Positions 1 through 61,413 of a stretch of 64,000 bases of DNA are shown here, one piece after another. A model generated the notes under the pieces. It did no database searches. It saw only the letters and a list, made by a program, of their open reading frames with translations, and was not told the DNA's origin. This DNA comes from Proteromonas lacertae. Taxonomy: Eukaryota; Sar; Bigyra; Opalinata; Proteromonadidae. The stretch's first letter is position 1; each line of letters opens with the position of its first letter. The DNA lies in the NCBI GenBank assembly GCA_002245135.1, contig NGBS01000607.1:1-64000 (forward strand), read 5' to 3'. The translations under genes and the position numbers were made by a program.

Positions 1-2474
1 TATTGGAATTGTTATAATTGGATTAGATCTGGATTTGACTAATGGAGGTAATTCAATTAATCATCTTCAGGAAGAATAAATTCATGATCTTTGATATTCG
101 TAATAAAAATTACATTTGCTAAATTCATTTTATCTTTTTTGACTTTGAATTATCTCTTTTATATACATATCCTTCTGGAATAAACACTTTTGATTGTATT
201 GGTTTTGGTTTTATAATTCTCTGTTTTTCTTTCTTAGTATTTTCTAATTCTTGAAGCTTTATTGAATATATTCTTTCAATTTCATTAATCTCCTTTTGAC
301 AATTATTAATATCATCTATTATGCCTCCAAAATCATTTCTTATTCCTTTTTGATATTTTTGGAATATGAAATATATGAATAATAATCATTTACAGAAGCA
401 AATAATTTTTTCATAAATATTTTATATATATCTTCTGTTAATCTACTCATTTCAACTTCATTTGCTTTTGTGCATTTCTTGGTATTGAAATACTTTGAAA
501 TTTTTAAGTAAGTGAACATTTTGATTAATAGGAAATATGTTTATATCTGAATCAAAATATGAATTATGTAGATTAATTCCATTATATCCATAATTATTAT
601 CAAATAAATATAATCTATAATCTTTATTTGAACTTCCAGATTTATTTCCACCTTTAAGTAAGAATGAATATTCATTAAACAATTCTTTATTAAAATCAGT
701 TGCAATCTAATCTCATTTTCTTTACAGAATTTTATCATATTTAACATCAAAGAACGAGAAAAAATAATCATTTTATTATCTGAATTAAATGGATGATATT
801 TATATTCAATTTCCACAGCACCATATTTCTTTGTTATTTCAACATTCACATCATAAGTTGATAATGGCAAAACAACATATAATTCTTTTCTTTCATTACT
901 TAAACCAAATTCATTCCTTATCCAATCTCCCCATCCTTCTTTAGAAGAAATATTATTTCATGATTTGTAAATCCCAATATAGAATCATCACCACAATGAA
1001 GTTTAAATTTGAAACTAGAATTCTTATTATATCTGAAAATAACAACTTTGAAATAAATAGAATCTGGTTCTATATTGTTTAATTTTGACTTGATAAAATC
1101 TGCTAAATTTGATTCATATGAATTAGTCTTTTCAATCATATGATTTATTGATTCATGATAATATAATGTCAAAATATAATTCTTAGCTTCTCTATTGATT
1201 CTATTGATCCATATTTCTTTTCAAATTCTTTATTATCTCTTTCAACAGCTTTTTTAGCATCTCTTTTTAATTTATCTTCCATTTGTTTATAATTATTTTC
1301 TAATTTGTTTTTATTATTCTTCAATTCATTATACTCTTTTTCTAATCTCTTTATCTTCTGATCTATTCCTTCTATTCCATTTTTATATTCATTTTGAAGA
1401 TATTCATCTGTTTTGGAATTATATCATCTATTGATTTTAGAATAGGATTTGTTTTAAAGAAATCTTTCAATGATATTTCACTCAATATTTCTAACACAAT
1501 ATCTGATAATTCATTGTGTAATAATGGACATATTAAAACTAATTTATCATGAAATGGCAGTGAAGAATTATATATTCCTTCATAGATATAAAACAAAGGT
1601 TCACTTTTCATATTATAATTTCTAATTTGATATTCATACTTTAAATCAGATGATGATACTATTGTTCCTGGTTCACATTTACTTGTGTAATTGTATGGTT
1701 CTAATGATAATATCTTATGTAAATCCAATTCTCTTTCATTTTCTTCTTCTACATATCTAATGATTCTCAATGCTTGTAATTCTAATTTATCTTCATAATA
1801 ATCTGTATTACATTTATCAATTATATGTGATAAATCATAATCAACTCTCCCATTGATAAATCTTTGTTTCGATTTAATCCATTCATTTCTAATAAAGTAT
1901 TTATGCACTATCTAATTGTTCTTGAGTTATTTTTCATGAATATAAAATGGAGCTTCTTTAATTATGGAATAATAATGATTCAAATCTACAGTTTTAGCAT
2001 AATAATTGATTCTAGCTGTCACATATATTTCTAAAGATTTTTTCATTACTTCAAAATTCTCAAAATCATGAATTAACTTATCTTTTGATATTTCTAATTC
2101 TCTCAATAATTCATAATATTGAACTATTGCTGATGCTGTATTTGACACTTCTAAAGCATATAAGAAATGACTACATTCTAAATATAATCTTGCATTATTA
2201 TCTTGAATTGATATAATCAATTATTGTATCTTTTATTTGTTTTATATCTTTAATAAATCATAAGCATCATCATCTATTCCTTCTATATTATTCTCTTCTT
2301 CAAAATCATTAACAAATTCACTCTTTATATTTGCTAATTCTCTTTTGATTTTGTTATAATTCCATTTGTCTTTGTCTTTTTCTTTTCATCTCTTATCATT
2401 GATATGCTTTTAAATCTTTCATTTCAGTATAAAATGATGAATATTCTTCAAAATATTTATCCATTCCATAGAAT
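1..2474 (-). pseudogene. Frame-broken 3' continuation of the giant kinase-AAA gene (coiled-coil tail)
   Basis: Below the stop at 2475 the minus strand keeps coding for sequence homologous to the relative at 11393-12478, but the frame breaks repeatedly. The first break is a T5 run (2483-2487) where the relative has T4; another is a missing A near 2402. Open pieces lie at about 2220-1927, 1908-1372, 1172-918, 870-541 and 682-458. Joined conceptually they give an alpha-helical protein with a Lys/Glu-rich coiled coil around 1390-1200, followed by a beta-rich part of unknown family. The gene runs off the left edge. The breaks are single-base and often in homopolymers, so this may be an intact C-terminal region damaged by consensus errors rather than a true pseudogene. 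Confidence 0.6.
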
Positions 2475-5400
2475 CTATTCAGTTTTTAAAGTTGTATCTT
2501 TCATTGTTTCATTAAATTCATCATATATTCTTTCAATATCATTAAATAATAAATCAGTCATTCCTGTGTTTTCTTTTGGTCTTCTTGATATATTTGATGA
2601 ATAACTTTTCAATAATCGAAGTGTTTTGTTTATTATATTCTCTATTACTTCTATTGGACCTAATTCATCTATCTTTTCAATTATATCACTAAACACATTT
2701 TGATATTTATTCCATTGAGAATCTTTATTATTCAATAATACTTTATCTTTACCTATTATATAACATAACAACAATTCATCTGAATCTTTTTTCAATTCAT
2801 AATATTCTTTTAATTTACATATTTCATTATCTTTGATATTAATCAAAGGGCATTTGTGCATTGACTTTAACTTTTCTGATGAAGATAGTTTGAAATATTT
2901 GAATAAAATCCATCTTTGAAGATTTGGATTACATTCAATTATTGTAGTATTTTTACCAAAATTCTTATTCACTGTTGAATATATCTGATAAAGTGGATAA
3001 TATAATAATGATGATGTGTAGTTAGAATTGATTATTTGGTATATTTGGGAATGTTCACTATTACTTCCTTTCCTGTTAAACATCAATATACTATCATTCA
3101 TTACTTGTTCTATCAAATCTTCAATTTTATCAACATTCTTATCTTTCAATCTTTTGATTAATATACTTATATTTGATGTATTAATTTCTGGAGGTTTTAC
3201 TAATATTGGGTATTTTGATTCTCTTCTCATATGAAATTCAAATTCATAACTTTCATCATTTGGATTATTCAAATATCTCAGTATATTTCTGAAATTGATT
3301 GGAATTTCTTTTCCAAAACATTTCACTTCATTTTCTCTCTCTTTTATATAACACAATTCTTGAGCAGATTCTATTGTGTTTAATGGATTAGCATATATCT
3401 CTATACAACGACTTAACAATGGAGCTGGAATTGTTGCTAGATTGGTTGTTGAAAAAGAGAAATAAATTCGGAAATTATCATGAATTCTATATTCAGCTTT
3501 GGGATTATCTCTTGTATATCTTATTTCTTCATCTCCATTTTCACCATTATATTCAGTTATTTTCAATTCTGGATTTTCTTCACATAATGAGTTTAATCTT
3601 TCCAAAATATCACCACTTGCTAGATTTATATCTTCTATTACTATCCAACATCCTTTTTCTATAGCTGTTAATAATGGACCTTTCTTAAATTCAAATGAAG
3701 TTTTCTTTTCTTCTCCACATGAAACTAATTCCATTCTACCTATTAATAAAGAACTTGTACTTTCACTATTCAATGGAACAACTATCAATGTCTGATTATA
3801 TAATTGTGCTAATCTTCTTAATACATAACTTTTGCCAGATGGAGATGGACCATATAATATCACTGCTCTTTTGGATATATATGATAAAGCTATTTTATAA
3901 GCTAAGGATTTTTCTGAGGTTGTAAATTGATTAAAATCAAATCCACAAGATTCTTTTGAGAATGGAATTGACCAAGGACCTGTTAATAATGTATTTTCTT
4001 CTTTACCTATCAGTTTTATATCCATCTTATTATTGATTGATAAAACTTTCTCAATTTCTTGAATATCATACTGATTGTATTTACATCCAAATGTCAACCA
4101 TAAAGCTGCTTTTATATCAGCTTTTATATTAAAACTTCTCCACACTTCTATTGCTTTGATTGGTTCTCTCAATGTAAATCCAATACCTATTTGTTTCCCG
4201 AGTCTTAAGGATTGTTCAAATAATTGATTGATTATTTGATTGAACTTTTCTATATCTTCAGCTCCATCTTCTGGATTTTCACTTTGCTTTAATATTTGTT
4301 TGCCTATTGTCAATAATTCAGATAATTGATATGATATATCATTATGGTATAAACTAATTGTTAATAAATTACTTGATAAAGAAGATCTGTTACTTGTCAT
4401 TGAAGCAGGATTTAAAGTACAAATTATATGAACTTTCTTTGGCAATTCTATTGTTCCATAACCATGAGCATCAAATGTTGTTTTATTCTTATCAGTACAA
4501 CATTTTATAAATGTGTAAAACTCATCCAAGACATCAGATGGAGCTAAATTCAATTCATCAAATAGAAATCCTATTTCTTCATCATCTTTATGATTTTCTA
4601 ATTCTGTTGTTATTATACCTGGTTTTCTTTCTTGATTTTGATCAGATCCAATTGTTAAACTACCAAATAATTCTTGAATTGTTATATTTGGTGATAAATT
4701 AAATCTGAATATTGGAATATCCAAAGCATTATAAACATGTTGAGCTGTTACTGATTTACCAACACCTGGATCACCTTCTAATATCACTGGTAAATTCGAT
4801 TGTATTCCCAATAATAATGTCAATATCATATGAACTGTGGTTGGAACTATATAAAATGATTCTTGAATATTCTTATTCAAATAATCTTGAATCTTATCAT
4901 ACACATCCATAAAATTAACACTAAATATTTCTTTCAATAATCCATCAACATCCAAATTCGCTGATACTTCTTCAGAATTCTTATTATCTAATTTGAATAG
5001 TCTTTGTAATGGTTGAGAAACAGATTTGGCTTTCTTAGATCTTAGTAATTCATATCTTGATTGATGATTTCTTGATATATAATCTAAATAAAACATTGAA
5101 TCAATTGGATTTCTAAAATACTTCTGTATTCTATTCTCTAATGTGTAAAAGTGTAATGAATATCTAATTATATCTTTACATAATGGAAATCTTCTGATTA
5201 ATTCTGTTTCTGTTGGATTTGGACAATAGATTGGCAAGAATAAAGATTTATCATTAATTCTATTAAAATCACTATCACTTATTACTCCTATCATCTTGGG
5301 TGGAACATAACTTCTTATATTCTTTATTTGATTCATTATATCTTCATAAACTGAATAAACATATTGATTGTCAATATTCTCCTGATATTTCATTGAACCT

Positions 5401-8400
5401 TTATATAATTCCAATAATCCTGTTATTCTGGGTAAAACAGATTCACTTATAAGATCAAAATGATTTAATATCAATGTTTCATCAGTTATAAAACTTGTCA
5501 TTATCAAACCAGGTTTGAAGAATAAACAAGATTCTTCATTATATTTCATTATTTCCTCCATATTATTCTTCCATTTAACAAATGAATTACTTGGATTTCC
5601 TTTATTGTAATTGTTATATGATGTTGCTATTTGATTCATTGTTGTTAATAACTCAGATGGACTGGAAATTAAAGTACTTCCTATCAAATAAGAAGAATCA
5701 TAAGATCTTGATAATTCGATAAATCTTCCATTATCTTCATATAAATCATTCATTAAAGACATTTGGAATGATTCACATGTGATATATAAAACTGGTGCTT
5801 GAAAATCACTTGATGATAATAACGATAATCGAAATAGACTTTCCAAATACCAATTATCTTGATTGTTAAACAATTCTTTTAATTCACATGTTGTTGATAT
5901 GTTATACTTTGATAGAGTATAATGATTCTTTTCTTTTGTGATTTGAATTTTACTTTTCAAAAATGTTTCTATTGTTACTTTTTTGATTATATCTTTGAAT
6001 ATTTCATCTAATAATGATATTTTACTTTCATCACAAAATAAACCAAGCAAATAAGGGAACTTATCTTTATATATTGATTTTAATGGAATTAAATAATGAA
6101 GTTGAGTCATTGAGAATAAATCATTTTCAAATATTTCTTTTGGTAAGTCAAATATCTTACTCTTTTCTTCATTAGTATATTCTTTTATTTCAAAACTTGG
6201 ACAATAACAAGGTATTGATTGAGTTGGTTTTTTATCACCAGATGTTGTGAAATTGAATATCACTCTGAAGGATGGATGTATTTTGAAGGTTTTATTCATA
6301 TATTCAAATTCATTAGTGGTTGGATCAATAAATGTTTCAAACAATTGTAATATATCACTTGATAATAAATGAGAATGTTCAATCACCAATACTACACCTT
6401 CTTCCATTGCAGATATAACTACACCTCGATGAAATTCTCTATCATCTGTGAAAAATCCTAACAATTGATCAATTTCAGTTTCTGGAGAGATATATAATGC
6501 TAGAGATTTTATTGGATTATAACTTCCATTCAATAGTTGTTCTATTAAATAACTTTTACCACTTTCTTTATGTCCAAATAAAGCTATTGATCTGTGTGTG
6601 ATTAATGATATTAATATTTCACTTAATAACTCTCTTCTTTCTTCAACTCCTTCAAATAATCCTTCATAACATTCTAAATATCTTGAGGGTTCTTCATAAT
6701 ATTTTGTTAATTCATTTATATGTTTCTTTGTTTCTTCTTTGAAGAATGATTCACAGAAAGTTTTTATCATCTCTTTTTTATTTTCATCACTTTCTTCAAA
6801 TGCATTTTCTATTTTTTCATCTGGTAAAGTAACTAATATAAATCTATTAATCAAAGCAGGAGAGAATTTCATTAAACCATTTTTTGAAACACTTGCAATT
6901 ATTCTGAAATTTGGATGAATATCAATTTCTGGTTCTTCAATTCTTTCATCAAATCTCACTTTCTGTTTACATCCATCATTTGGTATTATTTCTAACAAAG
7001 AATTCAATCTTTCGATTGAATTAGATTTCATATTATCTAATGATTGAAGAAAACAAGTTTCTCCATTGATTATACTTTTTACTAAAGGAGAATCATGCCA
7101 TTTTGGGGCTATTTTAATATCATTTCCACTTTCTTCATTATTATTATTTCCTTCTAATTGAAACATTCCAACCAAATTCTCAGTTGTTGTTCCACTTGTA
7201 CATCTTATAATATTGAGTTTTTCATTATCATGAATAGATTGGAGATATGATAATACATACTTTCTAGCTGTAAATTCATTCTCACTACATAATAAAATAT
7301 GACAACCTGATTTAAATATTGCTTTTATGTATTGACAAAGATTATTCCAAATAGTTTCATTCAATGGAAATAAAGTAGATTTACTAATTTCAAATGGTTT
7401 AGATAAATTCAGTTTATTTGTTGGTAATATATCGCCATAAACAATCTCTGTAGCTATTTTTGAAGAACATTTAGCTGATGTTATTAGAGTATTTGCTCTA
7501 ATACAATCTCTCAATGTATAAACTCTATCTGGATGATTGGCTAATGCATTTTGATGAGAATTTAAAATATCATTCACATTACTTTTTGAGATTTTTCCAA
7601 TTGATTCTAATATCTTGTTTAATTCTTCTCTTGTTATTTCTGGGAAGAATCTTGAATCAATATATCTGAATCTAGACATCATTGTTTCATCAATTTTGGT
7701 TCTTTTGTATATTGAAGCAGCTTGATTTTGAGTTGCTATTATTCTGAAACTTGGATTCATATCATATTTTGTATAACCACTTCCTATTGAATCAACATAT
7801 AATTCATGAGAATCTAAAACATTCATTATTGCTTGAACTACTTCAGCATTTGTTAATGACAATTCATCCAATAATATCACTTTTCCTTCAATAAAAGCTT
7901 CAGAAAATGGACCTAATTGGAATATTGGAGTTGATTTACCATCTATTGTTTTTATTATCACATTTCCTATCAATTCATCAATTATTGATGATGGACTGAA
8001 ATTATATCGAATTAACGGAATTTGACCATTCATACACACTTGCTCAACAGTGAATGTTTTGGCACTTGAAGTTTTACCTTCAACTAATAATGGAGTATTC
8101 TTTTCTATTCCATCTTCTATGATTTTCATTCTTTTTAATGCATTTTCAGTTAATACAGCTTGAGATCTTTTATTTATAGCTGTTACATCTCTATATGGTT
8201 CACAGATTATTTTCTTTCCTGTATCTTCATCAATTACTTCCAATGATTCATCTGGAGAATGAATAATCATTATATCAGTATGACAAGTAACAGATTTATT
8301 TCTTAATAATGGAAAACGATAGGATTTTTCTTTACATTCACATATTTGATAGAAATATATCTTTTCAGGAATAATGTTATTATCACTTCTTGTTTCTAAT

Positions 8401-11228
8401 AACGGTAATGTGAAATTGTTTCTTTTATTTTCTTGTCTATATTGAAAACCAATCTTAGAATCTTTTACTACATAATCTAATCCACAAATTAATGTTGATG
8501 GTAAAGATGAATATACTTTTCCTTCATTATTCTTAATGTATAAATTATCCAATAAAATACAATCAATTTCTTTAGTATCATTATATTGAATCAAAATAGA
8601 ACGCTTCACAAATGGATGATAATGAATTACATCTTCAATGGTAAAACCTGTTTTTATATTTAGTATCTTGTCAAATTTATATTCTATTTCAAGTTTTTCT
8701 TCATTATCAGAATCTGAGCAATATGAACTATCAGAATCTGAATCAGGATTCATAGCTCTTCTTCTTCTCATTCCTTTCTTGTGTTTATTTTCAGTTGGTA
8801 TATTACCATTATTATCTTCAGGTTTATTATCAACTATATGCTGTTGTTCTTCACTTATCGAAGATGGAAGGGGAGGATTTGAATTATCAAATGTTGGAGG
8901 AGGTGGTGGTAGTGGATTTACACCAAATGCTGGAGGAAATTGTTGAGGATTTACATCATATGGTGGTGGAGGTGGAAAAGGTTGATTAACACCAACATTA
9001 GGTGGTATAGTAGGATGAGGTTGTTGTGAATTTGTAGGAACAGGGGGAGGTGGATTTGGATATTGATAATTTGATTGAGGAGGTATAACATTTGAAGGAT
9101 TTTGATAAGCTGTTACAGGTTGTTGGTTATTGATATAAGGATACTGGTTTGTATAATTAGTTTCTCCATTATATTGATGAGATGTATTATTCGAATAATT
9201 ATAATTGTTATTACAGGAATGAAGTGGAGAGAAATTCTTCGAATTATTATAAAAGGATAAAAATTCTTCGAATATTTTTCTCATTCCTTTAAATCTATTC
9301 AGTTTGTATATTGGATCTTTCATTGTTTCATTAAATTCATCATATATTCTTTCAATATCATTAAATAATAAATCAGTCATTCCTGTGTTTTCTTTTGGTC
9401 TTCTTGATATATTTGATGAATAACTTTTCAATAATCGAAGTGTTTTGTTTATTATATTCTCTATTACTTCTATTGGACCTAATTCATCTATCTTTTCAAT
9501 TATATCACTAAACACATTTTGATATTTATTCCATTGAGAATCTTTATTATTCAATAATACTTTATCTTTACCTATTATATAACATAACAACAATTCATCT
9601 GAATCTTTTTTCAATTCATAATATTCTTTTAATTTACATATTTCATTATCTTTGATATTAATCAAAGGGCATTTGTGCATTGACTTTAACTTTTCTGATG
9701 AAGATAGTTTGAAATATTTGAATAAAATCCATCTTTGAAGATTTGGATTACATTCAATTATTGTAGTATTTTTACCAAAATTTTTATTCACTGTTGAATA
9801 TATCTGATATAGAGGATAATACAATAATGATGATGTGTAGTTGAAATTGATTGTCTGAAGTAATAATTCCATTTCATCTTTATTATACTGTGAAATATTT
9901 TCATGTACTATTTCTACTATTAAGTTTTCTATTTTCCCTTCATCTGATTTTAGTTTTTCAATCAATTCATATAAACAATTATTTATTAGAAACAACGGAT
10001 GAGTTTCTTGCACCAAAAGATGAGGAGTTGTAGTAATCTCTTTCAATATTTCTATAGCATCTATAATATCAATTCTATTTTCTCTTTCTTTTATTAGAAT
10101 TCTATTTATCAAGTTATTTATTTCTTTACTGAAATCTCCTCCAAATTTTTTATATTTACACTTCATAATGTTATTCATTGTTTCAAAAACATTATTACCT
10201 TCAAATGCATTAGTTTTACTTATTATATAATAACTAATACAACCAATTGACCAAATATCACTTTCTTTACTTATCTCTTTGTTTTCTAATACTTCAGGTG
10301 ATACATAAAATACATCATCATTATTATTTGCAACTACTCTCTTAAATAACTCAAGCTTACAATAATCACTCAAATAATAATGACTACCTTTGTCTATAAG
10401 GATATTGGAGGGTTTAATATTACCATGAATAATATCATTGGAATGTAAAATACTTAAACCAGTGTATATGCCTTTTAATACATCAAATACATTAACATCT
10501 TCAAAAAATGTCACAATATTGACTTTATCTAATGATAATTCGTATTTCTTCATAGCGAATAACAAATATTCTGAATCATTTTTTATATAATCATATTTAA
10601 CTATATTTGTAGAGTATAGTTCATTAATTATCTCAAGCTTTGATTTATATTGATTTATACACTCTTGTTGTATTTCTTGAATATTATATACTTTTAACAT
10701 TTTTTTTGAATGATTCTGAACATTATCAACAATATACGTATTTGAATATCTTGAACTGGGTATTTCTTTCAAAATCTATAGAGATTTATTATTGAAGGAA
10801 TACTTTATAATAATATTGCATTAATGAGATAAACCTATAATTATTTGATGGATCATTAACCTTTAATTGTAGATTAGAAGCTGTTTTTATGAATTTGTTT
10901 TCTTTTGGTGCTAATAAAGCATTTGGATGTATTACATTTTCTCCCATGTTTTGTTTGATATGATGCATTTCAGTGGAAATCTTTTCAACGAGTATTTGAC
11001 AATTTGGTACTAAATAGCTGCTGATTGGGTATTCGCATTGTAAAATTGATATTCCTCTTATATCATAGATTTTAAGTAAATTTTTATTCTCTTTTATAAA
11101 GTTCTAAGAAATAGTTCATAAAACAATACAGCCACCTCTTCATACAACACATTACAGTTATCATAAGAATTCAAGTTTATACTACCTATTAAATATCCAT
11201 TATATATCAAATTCACACTAAAACTCAT
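2475..11228 (-). CDS. Giant pseudokinase / Pro-rich / six-AAA+ (midasin-like) protein
   Basis: One frame stays open for 8.3 kb. It has no ATG of its own; a 28-nt intron (10776-10803) joins it in frame to an upstream exon starting at ATG 11228, which itself needs one base correction. Numbering from 10772, residues 1-250 are a protein-kinase fold with a Lys in the VAIK position, but the catalytic loop reads HGNIKPSNIL (Asp to Asn) and DFG reads DYC, so it is a likely pseudokinase. About 310-490 is a helical domain, 530-650 is Pro/Gln/Asn-rich with poly-Pro, then six AAA_5-type modules follow: Walker A GKTSSAKT (~894), a degenerate one (~1165), GHKESGKS (~1404), degenerate (~1665), GDPGVGKS (~2000), GPSPSGKS (~2309). 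Walker B motifs such as FDELNLAP resemble midasin. No MIDAS domain is seen. The helical domain recurs at the C-terminus. Function unknown. Confidence 0.75.
2496..2963 (-). repeat. 468-bp direct repeat, copy A (C-terminal copy in the giant gene)
   Basis: Base by base identical, as far as I can see, to 9315-9782 at a constant offset of 6819. It encodes the C-terminal copy of the helical domain. Positions 2488-2784 are also identical to 12006-12302. First difference from copy B on the right side is at 2964 (C versus T). Confidence 0.9.
9315..9782 (-). repeat. 468-bp direct repeat, copy B (between pseudokinase and Pro-rich linker)
   Basis: Identical to 2496-2963. Its flanks are still homologous but clearly diverged (for example KLNRFKGMRK here versus KLNRFYGMDK after the other copies), so the perfect block looks like a recent conversion tract. 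Confidence 0.9.
10776..10803 (-). other. 28-nt GT-AG intron that joins the N-terminal exon to the giant gene
   Basis: On the minus strand the segment begins GTATTCC and ends CTATAG. Removing it joins an upstream exon (ending ...MQYYYK) in frame to ILKEIPSSRY, the start of the kinase fold. Without it the 8.3-kb frame has no ATG. The size is typical of introns in this window. Confidence 0.75.
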
Positions 11229-11392
11229 TCAATTTAAATCTATTTTGAAAGATTACTTTTCATTTTAAATTTCATTTTTTGTGATATTAAAAAATAACTA
11301 ATAAGGAGTTATTATGATATTAAATGTAAGTCATTCGATATATTAGATTATAATTTATGTTAAAAATCCAATACGAAGTTAATTACTCTTCA

Positions 11393-12478
11393 TCTTCTTC
11401 ATAATCTACACAACACTTATCAGTTACATGAGATACATCACAAATCATGTTGCCATTATCATTTTTTATCTTCTTGAGTAATGTTTCTACAAATACCAAA
11501 TAATCCTCTTCTTATTTTTATATAATAATGATTGAAACTACCATTCTTTGCATAATAATTGATTCTAGCTGTCACATATATTTCTAAAGATTCTTTCATT
11601 ACTTCAAAATTCTGAAAATCATTAATTAACCTATCTTTTGATATTTCTAATGCTGTATTTGATACTCCTTATGCATATAAGAAATGACTACATTCTAAAT
11701 ACAATCTTGCTTCTTTATCTTGAATTTGATGATAATCGATTATTGTGTCTTTTATTTGTTTTATATCTTTTAATAAATCATAAGCATCATCATCTATTCC
11801 TTCTATATTGTTTTCTTCTTCAAAATCCATTTCAAATCCACTCTTTATTTTTGCTAATTCTCTTTTGATTTTGTTATAATTCATTTGTCTTTGTCTTTTC
11901 TTTTCATCTCTTATCATTGATAATGCTTTTAAATCTTTCATTTCAGTATAAAATGATGAATATTCTTCAAAATATTTATCCATTCCATAGAATCTATTCA
12001 GTTTTAAAGTTGTATCTTTCATTGTTTCATTAAATTCATCATATATTCTTTCAATATCATTAAATAATAAATCAGTCATTCCTGTGTTTTCTTTTGGTCT
12101 TCTTGATATATTTGATGAATAACTTTTCAATAATCGAAGTGTTTTGTTTATTATATTCTCTATTACTTCTATTGGACCTAATTCATCTATCTTTTCAATT
12201 ATATCACTAAACACATTTTGATATTTATTCCATTGAGAATCTTTATTATTCAATAATACTTTATCTTTACCTATTATATAACATAACAACAATTCATCTG
12301 AAGGCTTATTACATTCATAATATTCTTTTAATCTACATATTTCATTGTTTTTTATATCAGTCAAAGGATGGTTGCTGAGTAATCTCAGTTGATCAGCACT
12401 GAAAGATTTAAACAAATAAGATATTATCGAAAATATTTTTTCTTTTGGTTCTGATGTATAATTATCACTTAAACTCAT
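11393..12478 (-). pseudogene. Truncated relative of the giant gene's helical domain and tail
   Basis: It starts at ATG 12478 and reads 269 residues homologous to the helical domain and the following tail of the giant gene, without kinase or AAA modules. A TAA interrupts the homology just after ...ECSHFLYA at about 11669. Related sequence then continues to about 11393, ending with a stretch similar to the tail piece near 1800 (SHVTDKC versus SHIIDKC). It shares the exact 297-bp block with the giant gene. It could be a short standalone paralogue or a decayed copy; the internal stop and later indels favour decay. Confidence 0.6.
12006..12302 (-). repeat. 297-bp repeat, copy C
   Basis: Identical to 2488-2784 (offset 9518). 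Past 12302 similarity drops sharply, while on the lower-coordinate side homology to copy A continues with single-base indels. Confidence 0.88.
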
Positions 12479-12754
12479 CGTTGTGTAGAAATTGCAGTAT
12501 TTACATACACTTTTACTTACTCTTTTTACATAAAAAAGAATAATGAAAATTAAGCATACATTTCATTCGATAATTCATTAATTTGATAAATTCATATTCA
12601 TTTTCATTCATTTTTTTATAATGAAAATTATATTCGTTACTACATATCAAATCATTTTTTCTATTCAAACCAAAGATTATAATGAAATAATATATATATA
12701 TATAATATAGATTATAAAATCAAATAAGTAATATTAGATTAGATTTTAATTATC

Positions 12755-14507
12755 TTAATCATTTTCTTTTTCATTATAGGCTTTCTTACATAAGGGACAA
12801 ACATTATTCTCTTCAAACCATCTCTGCATACAAGCCAACTGAATTTTTATTAAAGAACACTTAACATAAATGAAATAAAAAAAGGATATATGATAGAAAT
12901 GTCTACATTTCAATAACACTATTTTATCACCTTCTTTATATAAATCCAAACAAATTGGACATTCATTTAATTCAGGATGTTTAGATTTATCATAGATTAC
13001 ATATGGTAATTTCTTTATTTCTTCTTTATTTATTGCATGAAGTGGAGGTAATACAATTCGATGAGTTAAAATACCCCAAAATTGATCATTATCTTCAACA
13101 TTTGCTTCTTCATCATCTTCTGCTAAATCAATTTCAATTGAACCTCCTGTTGTGCCTACTCTTCTTCCCATTCGAGATGATGATGCAGATAACATTGAAG
13201 ATCGACGAGTTGTTTTGTTTCTTCTATAAAATATTACGACTAATAAACCAATTAACATCAATATGATTAATAATGAGATTATGATTATTATGATTGTAGC
13301 ACTTTTGGAATTGGAAAAATCACTTTTAGCTTCTTCTATTTATATATTATTAATAGTTATATATATATAGAGATATACTCAAAGGAAACGACTCTAGTTT
13401 TAATATTAACAAATTATTCTCATTCAAACTATGACCATATTGACTTTTACCTCCATAACTATATATTATTGAATTATCTTTTATTGATAATGAATGAAAA
13501 CATTTGGATGGACTATTACTAACATCCAACTATATAAATATTATATATTATATATATATACTTCAAACCATTCATATTTATTTGTATTTAATGGCATTAC
13601 TAATATCTTATTTGAATATCCATGTTCTTTCGCTCCATTTGAATAATAACCACCATAATAAACATAATATTCATTATTATAGATTATACTATCACCATTA
13701 CTTCGACTAAATCGAATATTATCAGGAGTTATTTCAACCCATTCATTTTTATTTATCCTATATTCCCATACATCACTCATTAATAATTCTCGATCATTCA
13801 CATCTAAACATAAACCACCATATATTATTATTGAACATTCACTGATTGTTTTACAATATAATATTCCATTATGAGCATATCGAGGTAATATATTATTCTG
13901 ATTATTATAATGGATTTCTTTCAATTCGTATGTCATTAGATTTATGGTGTATAGCGATGAAGATATATCGTTATTATAATTCAATCCTCCAAATATGTAT
14001 AAATATTGATTATTGTAATTTACTATGGAGTATTGAGATAAGTACGGATATGGAGTATTCTATTCATGACAATATTATATGCACTTATACTTTATTGCTT
14101 TTTTCTTCAATTGTGTTATTTTTAATGTTATAAATGAGTAAATGGTTTTTATTGTTTGCTTTGTCACTGTAATATATTGCTATATATTCATCATTGTTCA
14201 TTGTAAATGTCACCTAACCAATTATACATATTAAAAATACACTTGTGGATAAATCTGAGTTTAAACATTGTTCTTTTAGAAAATATGGTTGAAAATTGTT
14301 AGATTTTTCATCAATATCATTAAGGGATTTAATATTTAAGGGAGAGCAGGTATGTGAGTGTTTTATCGATAAAGTGAGTAAATCACTGTTCGTAGAAATT
14401 ACATATTGACTTGACTCGACAACATCATCAAGATTATTTAGGTATTTCCACTCTAATCCACTAGAGGAATAAAGCAACACGCAAAAAATCAAATTAAAAA
14501 ATAACAT
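12755..14507 (-). CDS. Signal peptide / kelch-like repeats / TM / RING-H2 protein (E3 ligase candidate)
   Basis: Starts at ATG 14507 with a hydrophobic signal peptide. Kelch-type beta-propeller sequence follows (YIFGGLNYN, IIYGGLCLD, VYYGGYYSN, IYSYGGKSQ), then a Ser/Thr linker, one Ile/Leu-rich membrane segment (around 13310-13230) and a cytoplasmic RING-H2 with CPIC, CRHFYH, C and CPLC ligands. The spacing matches the RING-H2 rule only after removal of a non-GT intron at 12839-12889. Other introns are short GT-AG, near 14220-14246, 14043-14073, 13528-13559 and 13330-13373. Expected role: membrane ubiquitin ligase whose lumenal or extracellular propeller recognises a ligand. This topology (propeller outside, RING inside) is inferred from the order of segments. 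Confidence 0.78.
12839..12889 (-). other. Minor-class (U12-type) AT-AG intron, 51 nt, in the RING domain
   Basis: On the minus strand the intron starts ATATCCTTT, the U12 5' splice consensus, and ends TTCAG. A branch-like TTCTTTAAT lies about 11 nt before the end. Splicing it out joins CRHFYH directly to LACMQRW, giving exact C-x-H-x2-H-x2-C ligand spacing. The alternative GT-AG choice (GTTAAG to the same end) would insert extra residues into the zinc site. Confidence 0.82.
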
Positions 14508-14693
14508 CGATTTGAAACGATCATATTTTTTATATTACCCCATTTCTATTCTTCATTTTAAATTCTGAACTTACTATAAACTGTCATGTTAATGTAAAAA
14601 AGGTATAATAAACACAATATGCATTTTAGAAGATTAGAAAAAAATAGAATTAACAAAAGCTTGAGAAGTAAGTTTGAAAAGAATATATTCTAA

Positions 14694-15616
14694 ATGGAAT
14701 TTAGCGATCTAGGAGCACATTGTGCATTAGAAGGATGTAATCAGAAAGACTTCTTGCCATTTGAGTGTGAATATTGCCATAAGAAATATTGTTTGGAGCA
14801 TAGGTTGGTAGCAAAGCATAACTGTGAAAAGTTAAGTGAAATTAATAACATAGTATGAATAGTAAATTAATTTTAAAATAGAAAATTGATTTTGATAATC
14901 CTCAATTAAAGAAATGTCCTGTAAAAGGATGTAAAACCAAGCTGACAATGAGTAATAGAATTGAATGTAAACGATGCCATAAATATTTTTGCATATCTCA
15001 TCGAGATCCACAAGATCACGTTTGCACAGGTCATCCTTTAGCAAATAAAACATTTACTCAACCTCATCCACCATCTTCGAATAAATCAAATAGAAAAGAA
15101 GTATGCCCCTTTTGTGGTGAAACTTTTTCAGATGTAATCTCATTAATCAATCATACAGAATCAAAGCATAACAATGGTACTCCATCTATATCACCTCCAC
15201 CTAAATCTCATCCTATAGCTAAACCATATAATTCACCAACACAACAACAAACACAAGCTTTAGTTTATTCACCAGATGAAATATTTCCTATATGTAATCA
15301 GAGATTTAGAAATACAATTGATTTGATCAATCACTGTGAAAGTATACATAATGGAAATAATACATCAGTGACAACAACTCATTCTACTTTATCACAAAGA
15401 GAGATATGTGATGTTTGTGGTAAATCATTTGCTACAATCAATGAATTAATTGCACATGGAGATCAAGTTCATGCTCATAACAATAGAGGTAATAATGGTG
15501 GAAGTGAAAAATGTCCCAAATGTAATGCTAGTTTCAGAACTCCAGAGGAATTAGTTGATCATTATGAGAGTAGTCATAACAACTGTGCAACTGGGAGTGG
15601 ATGTTTAGTTATTTAG
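14694..15616 (+). CDS. AN1 zinc-finger protein with C2H2 fingers and CaaX end (ZFAND2-like)
   Basis: Two exons (intron 14853-14881, 29 nt) give 297 residues. Two AN1 fingers come first, each with the full C-x4-C-x9-C-x2-C-x4-C-x2-H-x5-H-x-C ligand pattern, followed by four C2H2-like fingers (CPFC, a degenerate FPIC, CDVC, CPKC). The end CLVI is a CaaX box, so prenylation and membrane attachment are predicted. Tandem AN1 fingers plus a prenylated tail resemble AIRAPL/ZFAND2B, which links the proteasome and p97 to ER-associated degradation. The C2H2 array differs from the animal proteins, which carry UIMs there. Function by analogy: proteostasis adaptor. Confidence 0.82.
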
Positions 15617-15773
15617 AAGGTAAAATATTATTTTTCCTCATAATATTATTTATTTATTCAAAATATGTGTTATTCTAACAATATATCTGAAATTTATTAA
15701 TTTAGTATCTCAAAAAAACAAAAATAAAAATTTATGAAACGAATATATTTTTTTGTTATTTTTTGAAAGTTTT

Positions 15774-50387: not shown

Positions 50388-51425
50388 ATGGAATCTACAG
50401 CACTTGCATTCTTTTTAACATTTCTTGCTGCAGCATCTACTACATTAGGATCAATTTCAATTTGTTTTACTGGTTTATTTCATGGCAAACAATATAAACT
50501 GTATTTATCAGGTATATAAAACTAAATTTAATTATAAAATAGGAGCTCTAAGTATGGCTGGAGGAGTTATGATATTTTTGTCATTCGAGGATATTCTAAA
50601 AGAATCAATCACTCATTTTGAAAGAGAACCTAAATATAAAAAGCATGCTACCAAATTTGCTTTGTATAAATTGTAAATATTCATTTAAATAGTGTCTCCT
50701 TTTTCTTAGGATGTATATTGGCAATGTTTCTTAGTTACATCACAACACTTCTCAGTAATACACAAAAATACATAAATAATAAGAAAACAGATAGAAAGAA
50801 GTTTAATAGTCTAAGTAGTAGTTATGATAAAGAAGAAGAACAAAGGTTTTTGAGTGATATAGAGAAAGGCAATTCCGCTAGTAATTTATACGATTCTCAA
50901 TCAGATTTAACATTATCTGGTATAGAAAGGAGAATAGAAAACAGTGAAGATGAGATTTCTGAAGAAGATAGAAGAAAGCTGTTTTTAATGAGCATTATAA
51001 CAACTGTAGCACTAAGTGTACATAATTTTCCAGAAGGAATTGCTCTGTATACTGCAACTATTGACGATGTTAAGCTAGGATTAACTTTAGGAATAGCTAT
51101 GATAATTCACAATTGTCCTGAAGGAATAGCAGTAGCAATACCAACCTATTTTTCAACAAGATCAAAGAAAAGAGCAATATTAATCACAGCAATTTCAGGA
51201 ATAGCAAATCCTTTGGGTGCTTTTGCTACTTGGAGTTTATTAAAAGATGGAGTTAGTGATTTTACATTCGGTGCGATGTTTGGATTAGTTGCAGGGATAA
51301 TGTCATTTATTACTTTACAGGAACTGTTACCAAGTGCTTATAAGTATGATAAAGAAGATAAAGTTGCTAGTAAATTTGTGTTTTTAGGAATGTTATTGGT
51401 CGGAAGTATAATGATGTTTTTGTAA
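50388..51425 (+). CDS. ZIP metal transporter 1 of 4 (ZupT/ZTP29-like)
   Basis: Three exons (introns 50512-50542 and 50664-50692) splice without breaks to 325 residues with eight predicted membrane spans. TM4 carries HNFPEG and TM5 HNCPEG, the ZupT-type metal-binding pair, followed by the AISGIANPLGA and GLVAGIM segments typical of bacterial ZupT and plant ZTP29. The long loop between TM3 and TM4 is charged and Ser-rich instead of His-rich. ZIPs bring zinc, iron or manganese into the cytosol. It is the most divergent and the first of a same-strand tandem array with shared intron positions. Confidence 0.92.
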
Positions 51426-51545
51426 TTAATTATTCGTAATTCATTATAAATAATAATATAAAGTGTTTGTAACTAATCCAAACTCTACAATAGTCACTGT
51501 TATATCCATAATTAGCAAAACACATTATTTCTTGGTAAAAAATCT

Positions 51546-51576
51546 ATCGAGTCGATCAAATACTCGACTTATCGAT
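51546..51576. promoter_or_regulatory. Inverted repeat upstream of ZIP 2
   Basis: TCGAGT and ACTCGA face each other around a 9-nt centre about 90-110 bp before the ATG at 51660, with ATCGA/TCGAT flanks extending the symmetry. It is one of very few CG-containing palindromes in this AT-rich DNA. The spacer before ZIP 3 has a looser AATCGATAAAAATCGGTT. A metal-responsive site is only a guess. Confidence 0.3.
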
Positions 51577-51659
51577 TTGCGTTTTATTAATAAAACCATA
51601 TAAATTATGCCTCATCTATCAAACCTTTCTCAAGCAATTGTGTTGTTTATAAAAAAATA

Positions 51660-52650
51660 ATGAACGATAAGGTGTTTGCATTTCTACTAACATTTGCAGC
51701 TGGTGTAGCTACTTGTGTTGGATCACTTACAGTGTTTTTTGCACATTTATTTAAAGGTAGAGCATATAAACTGTATCTTGCAGGTATTTTATTATTATTT
51801 GATGCTTTTAGGTGCATTAAGTTCTGCAGGAGGTGTTATGTTATTTATTTCTTTTGCGGATATTCTACCTGAAGGAAGTTGAGCATTTCAAAGAATATAG
51901 TCCAGAACATGCTACAAAATTTGCCTAGTATATTAATGCCTTTGATATTTATAATAGTTTGTTCTTTTTCCTTGGTTGTCTATTAGCTGTTGTGTTAGAT
52001 TTCATTACTGCTTCATTTACTGCAGAAAGACACTGAAATAACTGATGAAATGATTGAACAAATTGCTCTAGAACATAATCAAAAGCAAATGAAAACTATA
52101 AATCTTTTAGAAAAAAATTCACCTCAAGAATCTGATACATTTATACCAATTCATAAAGATGATGGTGGTGATGAAGTGATTTCAGAAAAAAGATAGAAAG
52201 CATTTACTATTTGTTAGCATAATAACTGCTGTTGCTTTGAGTGTTCATAATTTCCCTGAAGGTTTAGCTACATTTACTGCTGCTATGGATAGTTCTAAAA
52301 TGGGAATTACTCTAGGTATTGCCATGATTATACACAACTGTCCAGAAGGTATGGCTGTAGCAATTCCCACTTATTTTGCTACTAAATCAAAGAAGATATC
52401 TGTTCTTGTAACTGCTATATCTGGTGCTGCACAACCTATTGGTGCTTTGTTTGGATGGTTAATATTGAAGAATGAAGTAAGCCACTTCACATTTGGTGTA
52501 ATGTTTGGTCTAGTTGCTGGAATCATGACTTTTATCACCTTAGAAGAATTATTACCTAATGCTAATCGCTACGATAGAGAAGATAAGGTTACTAGTAAAT
52601 TTTTACTATTAGGTATGTCAGTGGTTGCTGCTATAATCATGTTTACATAA
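51660..52650 (+). CDS. ZIP metal transporter 2 of 4 (with single-base breaks)
   Basis: Same architecture and intron sites as its neighbours, ending at 52650 with HNFPEG in TM4 and HNCPEG in TM5. The frame breaks at about 51870 (extra G in DILPE-EVEHF), about 52033 and in an A6 run near 52187 where A5 would restore SEKDRKHLLF. Each is one base and homology continues on both sides, so the gene is probably intact in reality. A 153-bp block (52239-52391) is nearly identical to the fourth copy. Confidence 0.85.
52239..52391 (+). repeat. Conversion tract, copy in ZIP 2
   Basis: 153 bp aligned without gaps to 54681-54833 (offset 2442); 151 positions are identical, and both differences lie in one codon (AAC here, GAT there). 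Flanking exon sequence is clearly diverged on both sides. Confidence 0.9.
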
Positions 52651-52837
52651 TTCAATGAAATTTCAATTTTCTTTTGTCTATTTATGTGTTTATTTGAGTA
52701 ATAAAAAATCGATAAAAATCGGTTTTATTCGACGCACCGAAAATGTGTTAATTAACAATATATTATAACATTAAGCCTCTTACATGTTTTTAATTCAAAT
52801 CTAAATTCAAACTTTTTTCATTTTTTGTTTAAACTCG

Positions 52838-53887
52838 ATGGATCCTAGAGGTTTTGGATTTTTATTAACAGTTTTAGCAGGTGTAGGCACTTGTTGTGGC
52901 TCTATAACTGTTTTTTTCGCTCATTTGTTCCATGGTAAAGCATATAAGCTTTATTTATCAGGTATACAATGAATAAATATATAAATCAGGAGCATTAAGT
53001 TCTGCTGGTGGCGTTATGTTATTTATATCATTTGCAGACATCTTGCCTGAAGCTCTTGATCATTTTGGTCAAGTAGAAAATCTTAAAAACCACAAAACCA
53101 AATTCGCATAGTATGAACATACTTATTTATTATTTCATATAGTCTATTTTTCTTTACAGGTTGTTTATTAGCTGTATTCTTAGATTTTATAACCGCAAAG
53201 TGCAGTCCTAAAGAAACAGTTATAACAGATGAAATGATGGAAGAGATTGCAAGAGAACACGATGAACTTCAACAGCAAAAGAGATTAAAAGCAATGGAAG
53301 AAGGAAACACTACTCCATCTATTGAAATGTCTCCTAAAACAGAAGATGAACTTGCTAGTATAAGATTACCAACTGAACTAAATAATCAAATTGAATTACA
53401 ACATGAAAGGGATGATATATCAGCCAAAGATAGAACTCATCTTTTATTCGTTAGCATAATAACAGCAGTGGCATTGAGTGTTCATAATTTCCCTGAAGGT
53501 TTAGCTACATATACAGCTGCAGTTGATGATCAGAATATGGGTATTGCTTTAGGTATTGCTATGATCGTACATAATATACCTGAAGGTATGGCAGTGGCTA
53601 TTCCTACTTATTTTGCTACAAAGTCAAAAAAAATAGCTGTTCTTGTAACTGCCATATCTGGTGCTGCACAACCTATTGGTGCGTTTTTTGGATGGTTGAT
53701 CTTGAAAGATGGTGTTAGTCACTTCGTTTTTGGAATGATGTTTGGTTTAGTTGCTGGAATCATGACATTTATCACCTTAGAAGAATTATTACCCAATGCA
53801 AATAAATATGATCCTGAAGATAAAGTCTTCAGCAAATTTTTATTTATTGGAATGTTAGTTGTAGCTCTTATTATTATGTTTATCTAG
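52838..53887 (+). CDS. ZIP metal transporter 3 of 4
   Basis: Exons 52838-52961, 52990-53110 and 53143-53887 splice cleanly to 329 residues. Features: N-terminal span, SFADILPEALDHF, long acidic loop with TEDELASIRLPTELNN, TM4 HNFPEG, TM5 HNIPEG, then AISGAAQPIGA and a C-terminal MFI. The intron positions equal those of copy 1, so the array arose by tandem duplication after these introns were in place. Closest to copy 2 in TM4-TM8. Confidence 0.92.
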
Positions 53888-59405: not shown

Positions 59406-59615
59406 ATGTAGCAGAATTCATTTTTTCAATATTCAAAGTAATTTGTCATAATTTAATAAATCTAAAAGTGTGTATGTATTTAATTACTACTTATTGTATA
59501 TTATACCATTTAAAGGAAACTGCAAGCTTTGTCTTTTTCACAAAAGAACAAAAGAATGTTTTAGAATTTGAAACGATTAGTTTTTTTAAAACAAAATAAT
59601 ATCTTTTTCATTTCA

Positions 59616-61243
59616 ATGGTAGTTCCATACAAAAAATCAGAAAAAACACAAGCTGTACTTGACAAACTTCGTGGAGGTTTAATTGTCTCATGTCAAGCTC
59701 ATGAACCTGATGGTTGTTATGGTGTTGATGTAATGACAAGAATGGCTGTTGCTGCTGAAATGGGAGGAGCTTCAGGTATTAGAGCTGATGATCCTGATCA
59801 TGTTGCATCCATTCGTAAAGCTGTGAAATTACCAATCATTGGTATATACAAACAAGATATCGAAGGTTATGCAACAAGAATCACATTGAATATGGACAGA
59901 GTAGCAGATATTGTCAATGCTGGAGCTGATATTATTGCTATTGAAGCAACAGACCGTCCACATCCATTCAACACAACTGGATTTGAACTTATCACGCAAA
60001 CAAAAGCTAAATATGATGTAGTTGTAATGGCTGATTGTTCAACAATTCATGAAGCTGAATTAGCTTACAAAGCTGGAGCTGATATCTTATCATCAACAAT
60101 GAGTGGATATACACCTTATTCATTGACACGTTCCAACACCAGATTATGAAATGGTTGCTGAAATGAAGAAGAGATTCCCTGATAGATTCATCATCTGTGA
60201 AGGTAGAGTAAATTCCCCTGAACAAGCTGGTAGATTAATCAGACACGGTGCTGATGCAGTATGTTGTGGTTCAAACATTACTCGTCCAATCTACGTCACT
60301 CAACATTATGTTGCTAAAATGAAACCATATCCATCAGGTTCTCCAATTTTAGCTGTTGATATTGGTGGTACAAAGATTGCCTGTGGTGTTGTATTACCTG
60401 ATGGAACAGTCTCTGGTGTAGAGAAAGTACCAACTCCAAGTGATACAGCTGAACATATTTATGAATCATTAATTGGAGTAGCAAAGAAGGTATTTAGTAT
60501 GTGGAAAGGTGATAAGATTGAGAAATGTGGTATTAGTACAGGTGGAACTATTAATTATAAAGGTGATATTATCTATGCAACTGATACATTAACAGGATGG
60601 AAAGGATTCCCATTAAAAGAAAGAGTTGCTGAAGCTTTGAATTTAACTGTGACTGTAGTTAATGATGGTAATGCTGCTGCTTTAGGTGAAGCTACTTATG
60701 GTATTGCCAAGAACTGTCATTCAGTATTAGGTATTACTGTTGGTACTGGATTTGGTGCTGGTGTTGTTATTGATGGTGAAATATACAGTGGAACTTTAGA
60801 TAATGCAATTAATATGGGAGCTATTATAGCACAAGTTGGAGGTAAGAAATCAGATAAAGTTGTTGGTGCTTTAGAAGCTTATGTTAGTGGCAGAGCTGTA
60901 TATAATGAGTATGTTGATAGAACAGGAGATGCTAATAAATATACAGATGGTAAAGCTGTAGGTGATGCTGCTTTAGCTGGTGATTTTGATGCTAAAAAAG
61001 CTGTTGAGAAAGTATGTGAATGGTTAGGTATTGGTATTGCCACTATTGTTGCTTGTCATAATCCAGAGATGGTTGTTATTGGTGGAAGTGTTGCTGATCT
61101 AGGTGATATGTTTATTGAGAATGTAAGAAGAGAATTTAAATCTCATGCTTTCCCTGCATTGAAAGAGACTCCAATTAACTTGGCTGAATATAAATCAAAT
61201 GCTAATCTTGCCTGGAGCTGCTGTTTATGCTTGGACACATTAG
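59616..61243 (+). CDS. nanEK: NanE-NanK fusion: ManNAc-6-phosphate 2-epimerase + ManNAc (ROK) kinase
   Basis: Uninterrupted by introns. The N-terminal 230 residues are NanE: GGLIVSCQ, PIIGIYKQD (catalytic Lys), EATDRPHP, MADCST, GADILSSTMSGYT and EGRVNSPEQA. The rest is a ROK kinase: AVDIGGTKIACGVV (phosphate loop), GISTGGTI, VNDGNAAALGE (catalytic Asp) and GITVGTGFGAGVV. The usual GELGH and CxCGxxGCxE zinc site of ROK kinases is replaced by NMGAIIAQVGGKKSDK. One-base breaks at about 60132 (restoring VPTPDYEMV) and 61210 (restoring LPGAAVYAW, stop TAG 61241-61243) look like errors. ATG 59616 fits NanE better than 59568. Together the activities turn ManNAc into GlcNAc-6-phosphate in sialic-acid breakdown. 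Confidence 0.9.
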
Positions 61244-61413
61244 ATGATTTGATATTATTTTGTGTATAGTGTAATAATAATAATATTGTCTTTGTTTTTG
61301 GTTTATAAATACAAACAAAATTTTAAAATAGAAAATTATAACAACAATCATTTTGTGTGAAGAAAAAAAGTATGCAATTTCCAACTAATACTTATCTACA
61401 AAACATTATTTAT

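Follow-up and report, generated by a model that had tools for sequence, protein, structure and literature searches.

The window analysed here is a 64,000-nucleotide stretch of the Proteromonas lacertae genome (GenBank assembly GCA_002245135.1, contig NGBS01000607.1, positions 1 to 64,000). It starts at the contig's end (position 1); the contig is called C674 where contigs are compared, and coordinates are window positions unless another contig is named. We found that a giant gene on the minus strand joins four parts in one continuous coding sequence, in this order from N to C terminus: a degenerate protein kinase, a copy (CTR′) of a region that normally stands after the AAA chain (CTR), a proline-rich linker, and a midasin-type chain of AAA modules. 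Our best explanation overall is that a modular pseudokinase has probably been plugged, recently, onto a midasin-like ring.

The open reading frame (ORF) scan gave a single open frame, 2475-10775(-), of 2,766 codons, which bears out an earlier reading of this DNA (the original prediction) that placed kinase and AAA parts in one frame. Splicing out two GT..AG stretches, 11135-11104 and 10803-10776, connects this frame to an ATG at 11228, giving 2,897 residues. The same prediction had the kinase followed by a poly-Pro linker; the linker is present, but CTR′, of about 240 residues, intervenes and had been overlooked. The start of the gene is laid out as follows.

11136-11228, minus strand: exon 1, 31 codons from an ATG start, by in-frame joining; possibly a divergent form of the ubiquitin-like start of the AAA family.
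11104-11135, minus strand: putative intron 1, 32 nt, GT..AG, by in-frame joining; paralogs have introns at a like place.
10804-11103, minus strand: exon 2, from the ORF scan and in-frame joining.
10776-10803, minus strand: putative intron 2, 28 nt, GT..AG, directly before the kinase, by in-frame joining.

Paralogs of the AAA part, named here by contig, were tried for introns in the first exon, and four of the six (C139, C80, C824 and C140) accommodate one of 27-31 nt at a comparable position. The same script fitted none at that place in the first of two C31 copies, and in the second it missed the start. At a like place ahead of a related kinase on C459 a 30-nt GT..AG stretch was picked by eye. 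The window N-terminus has no Pfam match. We leave a ubiquitin-like N-terminus as a possibility: of four N-termini scanned only that of C824 scores (Sde2_N_Ubi, E 4e-5, below the cut-off), and ubiquitin-type matches in the C139 and C80 N-termini are at E 0.08-0.2.

The kinase was examined by Pfam search, by alignment with PDK1 and in a table of catalytic motifs.

10059-10748, minus strand: degenerate protein kinase domain, Gly-rich loop lost and VAIK Lys kept (Pfam PF00069 at E 9e-27, PDK1 alignment, motif table).
10419-10427, minus strand: HGN replacing HRD, the catalytic Asp changed to Asn (PDK1 alignment, motif table).
10359-10367, minus strand: DYC replacing DFG, with the Asp kept (PDK1 alignment, motif table).

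The predicted kinase fold is upheld at the sequence level, by the Pkinase match, which covers residues 10-238 of the long ORF, and by the match to PDK1 at E 4e-18. Catalytic motifs are lost at HRD, where HRDLKPEN of PDK1 aligns with HGNIKPSN of the window, and at the Gly-rich loop, which is gone. Both the catalytic Asp and the DFG had been called missing; the first is correct and the second half correct, with DYC retaining the metal (Mg)-binding Asp of the DFG position. This Asp and the retained VAIK Lys would permit a nucleotide- or partner-sensing pseudokinase; without the Gly-rich loop, ATP binding is likely to be weak or absent. The change of HRD to HGx is described as recurrent among pseudokinases (PMC4718504).

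A genome DNA search found no close copy of the window kinase, the best partial matches being 66-77%. At the protein level the genome has at least 150 matches to the kinase C-lobe at E 1e-8 (150 of 1,147 candidates scored). We inspected 13 kinase loci, including that of the window; they were chosen non-randomly, as the top matches and three with long open frames. All 13 have the VAIK Lys and DY(C/L/M). The HRD Asp is replaced by Asn in eight, three of which (L036-L038) are one repeated gene, and is kept in the other five; the Gly-rich loop is absent from all 12 kinases that could be read there (L060 is cut off at that point), and the helix C Glu is variable within the clade.

Several of these relatives are joined to other proteins. 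At L036 (C1119:370654-374400) the kinase is followed by an Hsp70 ATPase domain (E 6e-64), to which short GT..AG introns would connect it in frame, at L042 (C1050:2979-6764) and L060 (C604:101400-104100) by leucine-rich repeats (LRRs), and at L061 (C713:99900-102300) by two thioredoxin-like domains (Thioredoxin_8, E 3.5e-43). The C1152 kinase has by eye a Cys-rich tail with no Pfam partner, and the Pfam scan of L039 gave the kinase only; partner scans covered loci other than L037, L038, L040, L041 and L043. On C459 a kinase that keeps the HRD Asp is followed by the CTR region, without AAA modules. Kinase and CTR are thus adjacent twice, in the window and at C459, the window adding linker and AAA chain. 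Because the kinase adjoins CTR again at C459 and other partners elsewhere, its fusions recur, and it looks like a reusable modular plug-in sitting ahead of unrelated proteins. A recurrent pseudokinase module on unrelated engines is, in our judgement, more interesting than the single gene.

The AAA chain was divided into modules as follows.

7374-8216, minus strand: AAA1, with GKTSSAKT (Ala for the second Gly) and LLDELSL (Pfam, profile comparison, Walker survey).
6699-7373, minus strand: AAA2, both Walker motifs lost (profile comparison, Walker survey).
5889-6698, minus strand: AAA3, with GHKESGKS and a degraded Walker B (profile comparison, Walker survey).
4929-5888, minus strand: AAA4, placed by position and pattern, both Walker motifs lost (profile comparison, model, Walker survey).
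3969-4916, minus strand: AAA5, with GDPGVGKS and FLFDELNLA, canonical (Pfam, profile comparison, Walker survey).
3099-3968, minus strand: AAA6, with GPSPSGKS and Walker B IEDINLA (Pfam, profile comparison, Walker survey).

Pfam AAA_5 matches in five stretches of the long ORF (E 2e-56). When the profiles of AAA1, AAA2, AAA3, AAA5 and AAA6 were compared, seven of the ten pairs aligned at 85% probability or more, the strongest being AAA1-AAA5 (99.4%), AAA2-AAA6 (99.0%) and AAA3-AAA6 (98.9%); the pairs that failed were AAA3-AAA5 (19.6%), AAA5-AAA6 (2.3%) and AAA2-AAA5 (0.1%). The AAA4 profile aligned with none of the other five modules (five pairs, 2.7% or less). A model of AAA4, for which the other modules of the window served as the alignment, was poor, with a predicted local distance difference test score (pLDDT) of 48.5. 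Foldseek matched it best to MoxR AAA+ proteins, at E no better than 0.1, a comparison biased by the alignment rows. Six modules had been predicted. Five are detectable and linked by their profiles, but we infer the sixth, because AAA4 aligns with no other module and its model is poor. In a Walker survey of six or seven aligned family members, AAA1 has LLDELSL with Ala in Walker A, AAA5 is canonical, AAA3 and AAA6 keep GKS/T with an altered Walker B, and AAA2 and AAA4 are without either motif.

Searched against PDB at E 0.001, the AAA region matched six distinct sequences: five of midasin (best E 6e-49) and 2r44, an uncharacterised protein that we take to be of MoxR type. Dynein, RNF213 and VWA8 are multi-AAA or AAA-plus-vWA giants, and none of them is among these six sequences. 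Pfam AAA_7, the dynein motor region, gave a single match at E 2e-9, weaker than AAA_5. The chain had been likened to midasin or dynein; the PDB matches support the midasin half of that comparison but not the dynein half. Pfam scans found no RING or RZ finger in the window ORF (E 1) or in the C139 paralog (E 0.1). Against a set of 5.77 billion proteins, 81 matches to the window ORF were scored, of which the best were midasins or unnamed proteins at 20-34% identity over short parts, and three were kinases.

Besides the window itself, the genome search with the ORF found six close loci (two on C31 and one each on C139, C824, C80 and C552), which are 91-97% identical over most of the AAA chain and less so in broken stretches, and four distant ones at 42-51% (C140, C584, C172 and C5). 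C377 was also matched and is taken as the window locus itself. By sequence, the AAA part is a member of a lineage-specific giant midasin-related family of about 11 loci in this genome. The family is set apart from midasin because a probable true midasin, with three AAA_lid_7 matches, sits elsewhere, on C528; a fourth AAA_lid_7 match is on C1006. The family plan is a short first exon (which may be ubiquitin-like), a Q/P-rich linker, AAA modules, CTR and an unclassified C-terminus. No genome match to the ORF in other AAA-family loci includes the kinase part, and the N-termini inspected, partly by eye, at five close loci and one distant locus have a short first exon and a Q- or P-rich linker, with a kinase in none of the six; C552, cut off within the AAA chain by the end of its contig, did not contribute an N-terminus.

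The C139 gene (L010 and L033, C139:271002-285302) is intact and encodes 4,799 residues. For its post-AAA tail of about 2,600 residues, none of the 1,387 candidates scored from the 5.77 billion proteins proved related at E 0.001, in a search limited by length and shared words. The last 226 or so residues of C139 recur, whole or partial, on ten other contigs.

The CTR copy, the linker and the 3′ end of the gene are placed as follows.

9237-9965, minus strand: CTR′, a copy of the region after AAA6, about 240 residues (DNA and protein comparison).
9188-9231, minus strand: junction stretch from CTR′ to the linker, 44 bp (genome DNA search).
8700-9187, minus strand: Pro-rich linker, approximate, common to the paralogs (sequence comparison with paralogs).
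2428-3033, minus strand: first part of CTR, following AAA6; counterpart of CTR′ (DNA comparison).
1-2474, minus strand: continuation of CTR, its frames broken here at the end of the contig and open in C377 (comparison with C377).
11300-12478, minus strand: CTR-only gene in the left flank, with counterparts on C770 and C825 (ORF scan, DNA comparison).

C377 matches the window over 990-8644 with 34 differences (18 substitutions and 16 single-base indels). All of these fall close to one or other contig end, within 1014-2487 and 7767-8554; over 2488-7766 the two contigs agree without difference for 5,279 bp. In C377 the frame continues to 155554, another 1,770 or so residues, giving a locus product of about 4,660 residues. 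We read C674 and C377 as parts of a single locus that the assembly left unmerged, their tips being of poor sequence quality. Because the differences sit at contig ends and C377 stays open, the stop at 2475 is not taken as real; it is very probably a contig-end error. A pseudogene call from the frameshifts at 1-2475 was rejected on the same comparison. Base differences crowd at contig ends generally here (window 1-2475; C377:165900-167017, approximate), and breaks in such places need checking before a pseudogene is called.

The predicted absence of a MIDAS domain holds for the window, but the apparent C-terminus on which it was judged is a contig end, past which the gene goes on for those 1,770 or so residues. 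DxTxS- and DxSxT-like strings were seen by eye in C139 and C377, and we do not claim from them a vWA or MIDAS domain in the tail; pieces of C139 gave no Pfam or PDB match.

In two short contigs, C770 (16 kb) and C825 (11 kb), the left flank of the window locus runs directly into the right flank known from C377, and the giant gene is missing. The left flank holds a RING gene, a gene that looks kelch-like by eye, and the CTR-only gene; in C770 and C825 it is 91% identical to the window over 11300-13800 and 98-99% over 13900-15700, and their right flank is 97-98% identical to C377. The stretch 13900-15700 occurs at three places only in the genome, and the right-flank gene has three close copies (C377, C770, and C825 in two pieces), other matches being at 23-31%. 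One copy of the region therefore has about 14 kb, the giant gene included, that the other two lack, and a 34-bp direct repeat (33/34) is common to both edges of the segment. The simplest reading of these comparisons is that the giant-gene locus is a presence/absence variant between haplotypes; possibly the copies are segmental duplicates instead. It is conceivable, if rather doubtful, that the gene is a non-functional rearranged copy, a recent recombination product in decay whose frame is open through youth and not selection. Its presence in one of three assembled copies of the region would fit, as would a 3′ end some 566 residues shorter than that of C139, with the ORF stopping at the breakpoint. 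However, the frame is open for about 4,660 residues apart from the contig-end differences, and the kinase adjoins CTR again at C459 and other partners elsewhere. Decay of this kind overlaps with the plugging of a pseudokinase onto the ring, which makes no claim on present use.

CTR′ DNA at 9248-9852 is 96.7% identical to 2428-3033, with zero differences over 9315-9782. These 468 identical bp in one locus are error-prone for assembly and raise an alternative that we consider unlikely, namely an assembly chimera in which a C459-like kinase-CTR gene was misjoined, via the shared CTR repeat, to a first-exon-linker-AAA gene. C377 ends at window position 8644, short of the junction, single-base errors crowd at contig ends, and the six AAA paralogs inspected are without a kinase. 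A switch inside the repeat should, however, leave a partner join elsewhere (the kinase CTR running on, or AAA6-CTR followed by the linker), and none was found. Nor did the genome DNA search, which skips very common words and which a short stretch can escape, match the 44-bp junction stretch elsewhere or find a close DNA copy of the kinase. C377 confirms the AAA6-CTR join, no stop interrupts the frame at the junction, and C770 and C825 have the two outer flanks side by side.

It is very unlikely that two genes have been read as one, the stop of a kinase-CTR′ gene being made in some other way and an AAA gene beginning downstream. Introns of about 30 nt are typical of Blastocystis, a possible relative on that account, where polyadenylation can create stop codons; chimeric gene models are described there as well. 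C459 is a case of kinase and CTR without AAA. On the other side, TGTTTGTT, the motif taken to mark stops of this type, does not occur on the gene's coding strand, which leaves such a stop unsupported, and it occurs 4 times in the window against 5.9 expected. A kinase-CTR′ gene would also be truncated, CTR′ being a fragment of only about 240 residues, and no family-type first exon was seen by eye next to the linker.

Several observations weigh against the plugging of a pseudokinase onto the ring. The stretch across the kinase-AAA junction, 8645-11228, is carried by C674 alone and includes one copy of the 468-bp identical repeat. The gene is absent from the two other apparent haplotype copies, and the locus product is without the last 566 or so residues and about 80 internal residues of intact C139, so the gene may be expendable or in decay. 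Exon 1 resembles the paralog N-termini only weakly: the z score of the window N-terminus is 1.3 to 3.6 with three close paralogs and -0.7 with C140. The CTR of C459 has an in-frame TGA, and its join to the kinase needs a 26-nt intron seen by eye. Structure prediction of the kinase alone reached a pLDDT of 37.9 and gives no structural support, and the AAA4 model, as noted, is poor.

If a pseudokinase was plugged onto a midasin-like ring, a kinase-CTR segment would have entered an AAA-family gene between the first exons and the linker, and the internal CTR copy would have been homogenised recently. The 44-bp junction stretch, unmatched elsewhere in the genome search, does not look like two extant sequences simply joined. 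The ring may be a client-remodelling machine driven mainly by AAA1 and AAA5, the modules that have both Walker motifs; AAA3 and AAA6 would probably be regulatory binding sites, and AAA2 and AAA4 structural modules. The pseudokinase, on its flexible Pro-rich tether, could serve as a non-catalytic, exchangeable adaptor for docking a partner or client, and weak nucleotide binding might gate it. CTR′ might mimic the CTR next to the ring, or compete with it and take its site there. The same adaptor logic would extend to the Hsp70, thioredoxin and LRR fusions. More tentatively still, the fusions might form a combinatorial adaptor system, in which an expanded HGN/DYC pseudokinase is recombined N-terminally onto AAA ring, Hsp70, thioredoxin-like and LRR engines, giving each a partner-sensing or client-selecting head, and in which combinations arise as haplotype presence/absence variants, like immune receptor families.

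Among known systems midasin (Rea1/Mdn1) is the nearest, with MoxR-type AAA modules in one giant chain, a similar length class and a long post-AAA tail, and it is the only named PDB sequence match of the window AAA region. It differs in several respects. AAA_lid_7 (PF17867) is unmatched in the window ORF at E 1 and has genome matches only on C528 (three) and C1006 (one). The helical N-terminal domain of midasin is replaced in the window by kinase, CTR′ and linker, and in the paralogs by a short exon and linker; no MIDAS domain was recognised in the window ORF or in the C139 tail pieces tested. The modules do not correspond one-to-one: window AAA1 is nearest to midasin AAA3, and AAA2 to midasin AAA4/AAA6 (midasin numbers being assigned from position). 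The functional ATP sites of Rea1 are given as AAA2-AAA5 in PMC6286127, whereas the intact-looking sites of the window are AAA1 and AAA5, and window AAA2 and AAA4 are without Walker A.

RNase L likewise combines a degenerate kinase and a second activity in a single chain, and, according to PMC4718504, its pseudokinase regulates the fused activity through ATP binding, which provides a precedent. Its partner is a different one, we claim no sequence kinship, and the relatives of the window kinase are joined to several partners. The kinome of the stramenopile Phytophthora infestans, as presented in PMC3019232, includes predicted-inactive kinases and novel combinations of kinase and accessory domains, among them a methyltransferase fused to an inactive kinase; neither AAA nor Hsp70 occurs as a term in the text of that paper. 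This kinase-AAA architecture was recognised neither among the top literature matches nor in the protein set (81 scored), so the earlier statement that no protein with this order has been described holds within the searches made. That statement came with the idea of a mechanochemical machine; the domain combination is new, but the gene is no stand-alone machine of a new kind: it is one, apparently polymorphic, member of an expanded midasin-like family.

If the junction holds in transcripts, this would be the first pseudokinase–midasin-like AAA protein within what was searched, and one of several related degenerate-kinase fusions to unrelated engines. Hsp70, AAA ring, thioredoxin and LRR partners would then form a natural series for the effect of a pseudokinase head on the attached part. 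The giant AAA family, with its relative-less tail of about 2,600 residues, is an unexplored branch of midasin-type machines.

Elsewhere in the window, a TTC30 homologue has its best organism-named match, at 60%, in a bicosoecid stramenopile; together with the introns of about 30 nt this suggests to us kinship with opalozoan stramenopiles. The stretch 59565-61269 encodes NanE and a ROK-family kinase (probably NanE-NanK) in overlapping frames, perhaps a bacterial-type fusion via an intron or frameshift. Tandem ZIP zinc transporter genes lie at 50670-53887, with Pfam matches at 50670-51422 and 53117-53884 and a similar ORF at 52180-52650 that lay outside the Pfam scan.

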